From NCBI GenBank assembly GCA_030247885.1, contig JAPDRO010000012.1, positions 124,001 to 188,000 of the forward strand: a stretch of DNA of 64,000 nucleotides, in the 5' to 3' direction. The position numbers and the translations under genes were made by a program. Shown here one piece after another: positions 48,065-51,028 of this stretch (its first letter is position 1; each line of letters begins with the position of its first letter). Source of the stretch: Taxawa tesnikishii (nom. ined.). Its lineage: Eukaryota > Ascomycota > Dothideomycetes > Dothideales. The notes below the pieces were generated by a model, which saw only the letters and a list, made by a program, of their open reading frames with translations, made no database searches and had not been told where the DNA came from.

Positions 48065-48622
48065 CTACTGTTCCAGATTCACCGGGAAGGTGCCAGACTC
48101 TGCGACCTCGTTTAGCCCAGACATCTTCAGATTCGGTTCGATCGTACGTACCGCGCTGGTCATCCCATCTCTCGGCCCAGGAGCTAGGGCAAAGAGACCT
48201 ATAAGCCAGGAAGAACTAAAGTGTATCCCGTCAACATCCCAGTCTACACAACTGTTCGTGTGGCACAAGGGAGGGCGTACCTGACGGCATGGCTTGAAGT
48301 CCTCGCCCTTGGCAAGAATGCACTTGTGGTAGTCAACGTAGTTCTGCCAGCAGTGCTTGGTCTGGTTCTGGTTCGGAAAGCGGGCGTCGAAGCCTGTGCA
48401 GAGCGTTAGAAGCTGTATGCGCTAATTCCCTTCGTTCCGTGTATCTTTTGCGGCTTCATGCGCGACCCAAGGGAGACAAGGGGCGGAGGGAGTGCATACC
48501 AGCTGCGCGAAGAGTAGTGTTAGCGTCATGTATACAGTGGCTATGGGAGCGGACTTCTGGGTTCATTGCGCACCTGTCACGAACTTGAAGGGCATGGTAA
48601 CGCGCTCCTCGTCGTCTGCCAT
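48065..48622 (-). CDS. COX12: Cytochrome c oxidase subunit 6b (Cox12), with a 3-nt exon
   Basis: Intermembrane-space subunit of complex IV with a CHCH-type fold. 87 residues in five exons: 48622-48574 (MADDEERVTMPFKFVT), 48502-48500 (the three bases CTG), 48393-48281, 48215-48152 and 48099-48065. Conserved blocks: FDARFPNQNQTKHCWQNYVD, YHKCILAKGEDFKPCRQF, SLCPSSWAERWDDQRE and GTFPVNLEQ; the four CHCH cysteines are present. Exon 1 ends ACA-G and exon 3 starts GC-TTC; only the CTG microexon yields the conserved V-T-A-G-F-D-A-R. Both flanking introns (71 and 106 bp) have CTAAC branch sites and GT/AG ends. Divergent from the MLRQ-type gene. Confidence 0.92.
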
Positions 48623-48894
48623 TGTTGCGGTATTGTATGCGAAAGGATTTCGGTGTTTGTGGTTGTGTACTGGCGGGTGTCTGTCGAGCAGGAGCTTGGT
48701 TGAAGCAATGAATGAGGTCTTGAGCATCACCAGACATCGGTTCTGCGCTTAAGCTCGGATACTTTCCCGCCATCCGATTGGCCGGTCCTTGAACAAACGT
48801 CAGGTACACCACGATCAAGTTCACAGCTCCCCTTCGCAGCTCAAGGTACCTACAACCAGAACAACTCTCCATTCTTCAGATTGGTATAGCCACC
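48623..48894. promoter_or_regulatory. Bidirectional promoter COX12 / MLRQ-type gene
   Basis: 272 bp separate the divergent ATGs of two small respiratory-chain genes. A shared regulatory region is inferred from spacing only. Confidence 0.55.
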
Positions 48895-49477
48895 ATGCTG
48901 TCCTCCAAGATGTTCCAGCCCGCTGTGCGGTCGCTCCGCATGCGCCCGACTCAGCTGCTCCAGCAGTCCCGCGGTTTCAAGACCACTCCACGCACCATGA
49001 GGCCAATGCCGGTACGTAGAGGGACGCCATACTGCCATTGGCTGTGCTAACTCATGTTACAGAAGGAGGAGCACAGCGGTAAGCTCTTCGAAGCCAGCGA
49101 AGACCGGTAAAGGACCCAGGAGTACTCATTCTGTACAGCCCACACCATCTCCCAGCGCATTCGCACCCTCAAGAAGATCCCACCTGAGTTGATTCCTCTC
49201 GGTACGTTACAGAACACTCCTTCTGCCCATGGAAAGATGCATCTACTAACACATGAATTTAGGTGTCGTTCTTGGGTAAGAACAATACTACCCGCGCGCA
49301 GCCTAACAACCGGCCCAGTCACCCAAATCAAAGCTGACTCTTTATTACAGCGTTGCCATTGGCGCCGCAGTCTACTCTCTGATCAGGAAGTTCTACACAG
49401 ACGGCACCCTCCGCCTCTACAGATCGAGGGGCCACAACCAGGCCGCCTCGCCCGCCGACACCAAGCCAGGCCACTGA
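48895..49477 (+). CDS. MLRQ/NDUFA4-like (B12D family) mitochondrial protein
   Basis: A small inner-membrane protein of the MLRQ/B12D family, once assigned to complex I and, for mammalian NDUFA4, now to complex IV. 111 residues in five exons: 48895-49011, 49063-49078 (16 nt), 49139-49201, 49263-49275 (13 nt) and 49351-49477. Exon 1 is a mitochondrial targeting peptide rich in Arg (FQPAVRSLRMRPTQ, QQSRGFKTTPR). The mature part reads EEHSAHTISQRIRTLKKIPP, ELIPLGVVLGVAIGAAVYSL (the membrane segment) and TDGTLRLYRSRG. All introns have GT/AG ends, and branch sites of CTAAC type precede exons 2 and 4. All phases agree with the conserved protein. Confidence 0.85.
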
Positions 49478-50195: not shown

Positions 50196-50711
50196 TCACG
50201 CCAGTTTTGGTCCAGCAACGTCCAACTGCTCGAGGCCTTGCATAGGATCCATAGGCCCCTCGTCCTCCGGCGCGTCTCCCTCAGCACCACGTCTGTCCTC
50301 CTCACTGACCGCGTACTTGGCAAGATACCCCTCCTGTCAACGCTGTCAGCGTCATACGTCTATATGAAAAATGGAGAAAAGTCGCGCTCACCTGCTCCCA
50401 AATCGCAGTCTTACTCCCCAAGCCCTCGCCCTCAGCCTTGCGCTCCTTGGCAATGTTGACCTTGAGCACTCGGCCAAAAGCTCGCTCTGGTCCATGTTGT
50501 CAATGGCTTCCTTTGCGTCTGCTGCGTGCTCGAACTCGACGTATCCGAAGCCCCGGTGCGGCTCGGTGCTCGAGGGCAATTCCGGTGGTGGTATCGAGAC
50601 GTCGATTATTTCGCCGAACGGGATGAATGCATCGTGTAGGACATGGGTGGTGACTTGCGACGCAAGGCCGCCGACGTAGAGGGTCGCTTTGGCTCTTGAC
50701 GCGTCCGACAT
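50196..50711 (-). CDS. RRM protein similar to the RNA-binding domain of cyclophilin E (PPIE)
   Basis: A 152-residue nuclear RNA-binding protein with one RRM. Exons 50711-50392 and 50333-50196 (intron 58 bp). RNP2 is ATLYVGGLA and RNP1 is RGFGYVEFE; the sequence around HDAFIPFGEIIDVSIPPPE and ADAKEAIDNMDQSELFGR closely follows the PPIE/Cyp33 RRM, but the cyclophilin domain is absent. The frame breaks at the A4 run 50476-50479; one extra base gives ELFGRVLKVNIAKERKA, then GSKTAIWEQ, in phase with exon 2 (EGYLAKYAVSEED). Probably a spliceosome-associated factor, by family only. Divergent from SEC31. Confidence 0.85.
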
Positions 50712-51028
50712 GCCTTCAGCCCTGGTTGCGTGTCCGAGGGTGTTGTTGCTGTAGATGGCAGAGTGGTATCACGTGCGGAAAACCCTTTGAGTGAAGCTAG
50801 AAGCCAATGCCAAGACCTGGCTATTGTTTGACGTAGCTGGCCTTTAGCTGGAATTACGGGACAGTTGAGCAACAGTGAGAGCAGCAGCCCCTACTCGGAC
50901 AGAAAGTGCTTCCACCACGTGTGCTTTCCCTGATCCTTGCTTCAGACTTCTCCCTGTTCTGCACTCGAAGCAGATTTGATGTTCGGCTCTGACTGAGATT
51001 ATACCTTGATTTAGTCTCCTTCCCAACC
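50712..51028. promoter_or_regulatory. Divergent promoter RRM gene / SEC31
   Basis: 317 bp between the two ATGs. Open frames extending through here on the minus strand lack a domain. Confidence 0.45.

Follow-up and report, generated by a model that had tools for sequence, protein, structure and literature searches.

The COX12 locus and its product

The window (the whole 64-kb stretch of DNA that was analysed) carries on its minus strand the gene COX12, in which three bases, CTG at 48502-48500, separate two complete introns. The locus reads as follows.

48574..48622, minus strand: COX12 exon 1, 49 nt, ATG ... GTG ACA G, ending ACAG at 48574
48503..48573, minus strand: COX12 intron 1, 71 nt, with donor GTGCGC (48573-48568), a CTAAC motif resembling a branch site (48523-48519) and acceptor GCGCAG
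48500..48502, minus strand: putative COX12 microexon CTG, 3 nt, between acceptor GCGCAG and donor GTATGC
48394..48499, minus strand: COX12 intron 2, 106 nt, GTATGC...CTAACGCTCTGCACAG, with donor 48499-48494, CTAAC 48409-48405 and acceptor CACAG
48281..48393, minus strand: COX12 exon 3, 113 nt, GC TTC GAC GCC ... CGT CAG
48216..48280, minus strand: COX12 intron 3, 65 nt
48152..48215, minus strand: COX12 exon 4, 64 nt
48100..48151, minus strand: COX12 intron 4, 52 nt
48065..48099, minus strand: last coding exon of COX12, 35 nt, TAG included

The coordinates that an earlier, sequence-only reading of this DNA had given for the exons, the introns and the CTG agree base for base with our re-reading, and the two introns that it placed around the triplet are indeed there. 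The 180 bases between exons 1 and 3 divide into an intron of 71 nt, the CTG and an intron of 106 nt, and each of the two introns has a GT donor, a CTAAC motif and a CAG acceptor. Since microexons are internal exons of no more than 30 nt, CTG falls within their size range; its flanks are a canonical spliceosomal acceptor and donor (GCGCAG-CTG-GTATGC), with CTAAC upstream. Both flanking introns are in phase 1, and the three bases supply the second and third positions of an alanine codon (G-CT) and the first position of a glycine codon (G-GC). One feature of the locus counts against reading CTG as an exon: the donor of intron 1 is GTGCGC, while those of the other three COX12 introns are of the GTA type.

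Joined together (49+3+113+64+35 nt), the exons encode an uninterrupted protein of 87 amino acids that begins MADDEERVTMPFKFVTAGFDARFPNQNQT and belongs to the COX6B / Cox12 family (Pfam COX6B, PF02297, E 5.8e-25, residues 21-82). It had been claimed that the stretch VTAGFDAR is obtained only with the CTG, and this is what we find: inclusion gives VTAGFDAR, skipping gives VTGFDAR, and retention of either intron 1 or intron 2 brings in an in-frame stop codon. Absent from the earlier account is the point that the skipped form, one residue shorter, keeps the frame, so that the frame alone cannot exclude skipping. A search of the whole 29.4-Mb assembly with the COX12 protein, with E up to 10, gave three matches, all of them exons of this gene (3 of 3, only the best candidates being scored), and no second copy, paralogue or intronless copy among them.

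How unusual is such an arrangement of splice signals? The window has one copy of the strict motif (CTAAC, 2-25 nt, YAG, 3 nt, GTATGY), whereas the 40 first-order Markov simulations that define the chance expectation there average 0.0. For a relaxed motif the simulated average is 1.2, or about 0.0017 on a single strand of 180 nt, and two copies are present; with the branch site dropped, the acceptor-donor combination is seen 13 times where 13.9 are expected. Of these patterns only the strict one stands out in the window. It is rare yet without enrichment in the genome: a near-variant of it (CAG for YAG) has two occurrences in 29.4 Mb, one of which is the COX12 site, while the reversed control has 10. 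Because of this last comparison the motif by itself is no evidence. It gains weight from its position, flanked by two exons of a conserved gene, and from supplying the residue that would otherwise be missing.

Cox12 proteins of other fungi

Three protein homology searches were made, of which the best 120 of 545, the best 120 of 455 and the best 120 of 591 matches were examined. The first two gave 155 listed proteins, of which 154 were classified, P0040 (Rhizoctonia) being left out; the set includes P0006, which is labelled as a plant protein and is presumably a contaminant. Among these 154 best matches, 34 read VT[AV]G-x-DAR and 28 have the form VTG-x-DAR or an equivalent, shorter by one residue. 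Another 27 diverge straight after VTAG, 46 have some other insert or alteration after VT, 16 are without PFKFVT and three read VTGG.

The picture changes when the proteins are separated by origin. Fifteen have an unannotated source (nine jgi, four merc and two lgn proteins; we take merc to be a set derived from metatranscriptomes and the jgi proteins to have been read without splicing), and among these best matches VT[AV]G is present in 15 of 15 and the short VTG in none. The 139 annotated models among the best matches, with which P0134 (ncbi and lgn) was counted, comprise 19 with VT[AV]G, 28 short ones, 73 with an insert or altered stretch after PFKFVT (27+46), 16 without PFKFVT and three with VTGG. 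Included against short is therefore 15 to 0 in the unannotated sources and 19 to 28 in the annotated models, a difference for which Fisher's test gives p = 3.5e-5, a value that overstates the case because related species are not independent. The 15 unannotated-source proteins appear to be single open frames, so that they stem either from spliced transcripts or from genes lacking the introns in question. For eight of the 15, the longest listed contig measures 950-2,181 bases, as spliced transcripts would give; certain others, e.g. P0016 (longest contig 42 kb) and P0018 (5 kb), may derive from genomic DNA that lacks these introns.

Close relatives are found on both sides. VTAG is present in P0002 (93% identical), in P0003 from Cercospora (91%) and in P0004 from Cladosporium (90%), while P0005 from Hortaea (92%) and P0008 from Zalaria (90%, 34 members) are annotated in the short form, which counts against the exon. 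So does P0096, a short form and the largest cluster among the matches listed, with 117 member sequences. Verticillium longisporum, however, labels both this short model and P0116, a model with VTAG and an insert, and this points to a choice made in prediction, not to the loss of a triplet, behind the short model. The three VTGG models (P0057, P0137 and P0138, clusters of 61, 2 and 94) may reflect either true substitutions or faulty modelling. For P0057, from Trichoderma, we favour an error of the model, given its close match by eye to the jgi protein P0056, which reads VTAG, although this is unproven.

A separate observation concerns the jgi proteins P0016 and P0028, which contain VTAGFDAR and have a long in-frame insert straight after KPCRQ. 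This is the site of COX12 intron 3 in our sequence, and the insert looks as though that intron had been retained.

The models that diverge after VTAG allow a sharper prediction. A model that splices to the acceptor in front of CTG but runs on into intron 2 should read VTAG followed by a residue whose codon starts with the A of the donor (GT-A..). Among the best matches listed, the next residue in the 27 models of this kind is T in 13, K in eight, M in five and R in one. An A-initial codon can encode it in 27 of 27, against 168 of the 434 later residues of the same inserts (39%), the 27 being models from related species that share ancestry and not independent observations. The restriction to T, K, M and R is what the CTG-GTA junction requires, since it leaves only codons beginning with A. 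According to the class assignments that we assume for the genera, such models occur in Dothideomycetes (e.g. Aureobasidium, Zymoseptoria, Ascochyta and Pyrenophora), Leotiomycetes (Oidiodendron), Lecanoromycetes (Mycoblastus and Ikaeria), Eurotiomycetes (Arachnomyces and Aspergillus) and Sordariomycetes (Colletotrichum, Verticillium, Purpureocillium and Apiospora).

The third search (best 120 of 591) added 72 new proteins, by their names mostly of Basidiomycota, with some of Mucoromycota and Taphrinomycotina, some nameless and one labelled as bacterial. The anchor is present in 67, the set being defined without the five anchorless proteins P0164, P0185, P0191, P0196 and P0207, and T-x-[GPSAE]-F-D is kept in 66 of the 67. 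The lone exception, P0211, is a Pezizomycotina model, labelled as isoform B of Parastagonospora nodorum, with an unrelated start before TGFDAR. Two solved structures have the residue as well: 6giq_j, presumably from yeast, reads HTVGFDARFP, and 8c8q_J, presumably from fission yeast, reads GTVGFDARFP. Its presence in outgroup proteins and in structures means that the extra residue is probably ancestral and a protein without it anomalous. Four of the basidiomycete models (P0207, P0196, P0185 and P0164) break straight after GFD, which suggests that an intron lies elsewhere in those genes.

Pattern searches of the genome-contig and viral-contig collections for the DNA of relatives gave 103 and 7 matches, none from a true relative, and for this reason the microexon of the relatives is read from protein models. 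At this level the earlier proposals fare well. The short and the altered models among the best matches (28 and 73 of 139) give good support to the idea that the exon may be common to related fungi and overlooked by gene finders, and the comparison with related species that had been suggested, carried out on protein models, favours the residue both in the unannotated-source proteins (15 of 15) and in those of the third search (66 of 67), again among the best matches listed.

Alternative readings of the 180 bases

The in-frame skip is the only serious rival to a CTG exon. It supposes a single intron of 180 nt, 48573-48394, in which CTG occurs by chance, and a protein that reads VTGFDAR. Such a splice stays in frame, and the VTG form does exist in 28 of the 154 proteins classified among the best matches, including P0096 (117 members), P0045 (75) and the close relatives P0005 and P0008. 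We nevertheless regard it as highly improbable: the short form is seen in none of the 15 unannotated-source proteins, the residue is kept in 66 of the 67 anchored proteins that the third search added (best 120 of 591), the strict motif is rare, and lengths of 71 and 106 nt are nearer to those of the other COX12 introns (65 and 52 nt) and of the four in the neighbouring gene described below (51-75 nt). The same two counts of proteins bear on a milder alternative, in which mRNAs for VTAG and for VTG are both made and the choice of one residue tunes Cox12. CTG would still be an exon, and to that extent this alternative overlaps with our main reading. Both forms are in frame, skipping would take just one splice of 180 nt, and a 20-nt microexon of Trichoderma Xlr2 is described, in the part of the report available, as a glucose-dependent switch (PMC11121469). 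A short form seen in 0 of 15 and a residue kept in 66 of 67 suggest, on the contrary, a constitutive need, and in our opinion regulation is unlikely here.

Hardly any weight can be given to a spliceosomal twin intron (stwintron), in which one intron is nested in a splice site of the other with no exon between them. Two adjacent introns without an obvious exon, excised consecutively, would look alike, to go by the accessible portions of PMC9024468 and PMC12403724. Removal of 48573-48503 on the minus strand, however, gives ACAG-CTG-GTATGC, with the downstream donor intact and three coding bases left. A [D1,2] stwintron has its internal intron inserted between bases 1 and 2 of the external donor; here the donor GTATGC is contiguous (48499-48494), so the pair is not of this type. 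At a zero-length recursive splice site the acceptor abuts the donor (AG-GT) and no exon bases enter the mRNA. The COX12 site is not of this kind either, because the three coding bases CTG stand between AG and GT and remain.

Proposed splicing of the exon and its counterparts in the literature

Having weighed these alternatives, we are confident, reading from sequence, that CTG at 48502-48500 is a constitutively included coding exon of 3 nt in nuclear COX12, and its inclusion very likely gives the normal product of the gene. The protein models indicate that this exon is probably common to five classes of Pezizomycotina and often mis-annotated. It would then go back to the ancestor shared by Dothideomycetes, Eurotiomycetes, Lecanoromycetes, Leotiomycetes and Sordariomycetes, and the VTG and insert versions of Cox12 in the databases would mostly be errors of gene finders.

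How could such an exon be spliced? Sterically, three bases presumably leave no room for U2AF on the acceptor before them together with U1 on the donor after them. An exon too small for both machineries makes exon definition unlikely, and the two introns would be recognised separately, by intron definition, the way in which fission yeast reportedly pairs its splice sites. Introns 1 and 2 are short and complete, which matches the needs of intron definition. They may be excised one after another in free order: removal of intron 1 changes the sequence before the second donor from GCAG-CTG to ACAG-CTG and alters nothing else, and either order is workable because the remaining intron retains its own splice sites.

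Tiny exons as such are already known, and the comparisons that follow rest on the available parts of the papers cited. Codon-sized microexons occur in another ascomycete, in the nank (NACHT-ankyrin) genes of Tuber melanosporum (Iotti et al. 2012, as cited in PMC3689799 and PMC4986451). Those exons are described as alternatively spliced and as a means of diversifying an expanded family, whereas the COX12 exon stands alone and appears constitutive, and its gene was found only once in the genome. The 1-nt microexons of plant APC11 and VPS55, reported together with pervasive mis-annotation (PMC8831610), are similarly tiny, conserved over a large group and absent from the reference annotation, and they restore a conserved protein sequence; they differ in being confirmed by RNA-seq and RT-PCR and in measuring 1 nt, whereas the COX12 exon has 3 nt and is read from sequence. 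Given that report, 3 nt is not the absolute lower limit of exon size, at which the sequence-only reading had placed the exon. The Xlr2 microexon of Trichoderma virens also comes from a filamentous ascomycete and was also missed by the gene model, but its 20 nt are not a multiple of three and it is reported as the glucose-dependent switch mentioned above; according to that paper, functional microexons had not previously been described in filamentous fungi (PMC11121469). In Drosophila, the homothorax micro-exon has the same length, 3 bp, and is evolutionarily conserved, but it is spliced alternatively to another exon, in an animal transcription factor (PMC7392893). Ascomycete stwintrons (PMC9024468, PMC12403724, PMC6616335) share with COX12 the adjacent short introns and their probably sequential removal; in contrast, no splice site of either COX12 intron is split or incomplete, and coding bases are left between the two.

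Among the open-licence papers listed by our searches we found no microexon of COX12/COX6B; one may be in print. What seems new here is the breadth of occurrence, together with a housekeeping gene as host and a trail of faulty gene models. Going further, we lean, with some reserve, towards the idea that one exon of 3 nt, in a gene central to respiration, has been kept and constitutively included throughout the Pezizomycotina radiation, spliced by sequential intron definition only, that it is the most widely shared codon-sized exon of fungi, and that wrong COX12 proteins in most databases are its by-product. If this is true, most of the annotated Cox12 proteins that we examined have an error at one and the same position (28 of 139 short, 73 of 139 with an insert or alteration), and the locus is a compact natural test of the spliceosome on an exon too small for exon definition, accessible in easily grown laboratory fungi.

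COX12 lies head to head with a divergent gene of the B12D/MLRQ family at 48895-49477 on the plus strand (PF06522, E 3.8e-6). Our hand-made splice model of this neighbour has four introns of 51-75 nt and two very small exons, of 16 nt (49063-49078) and 13 nt (49263-49275). The two start codons are about 270 bases apart, and the stretch between them (48623-48894) suggests a promoter region common to two mitochondrial genes. Downstream of the B12D-family gene, 50260-50720 on the minus strand resembles, by eye, an RNA-recognition-motif protein.
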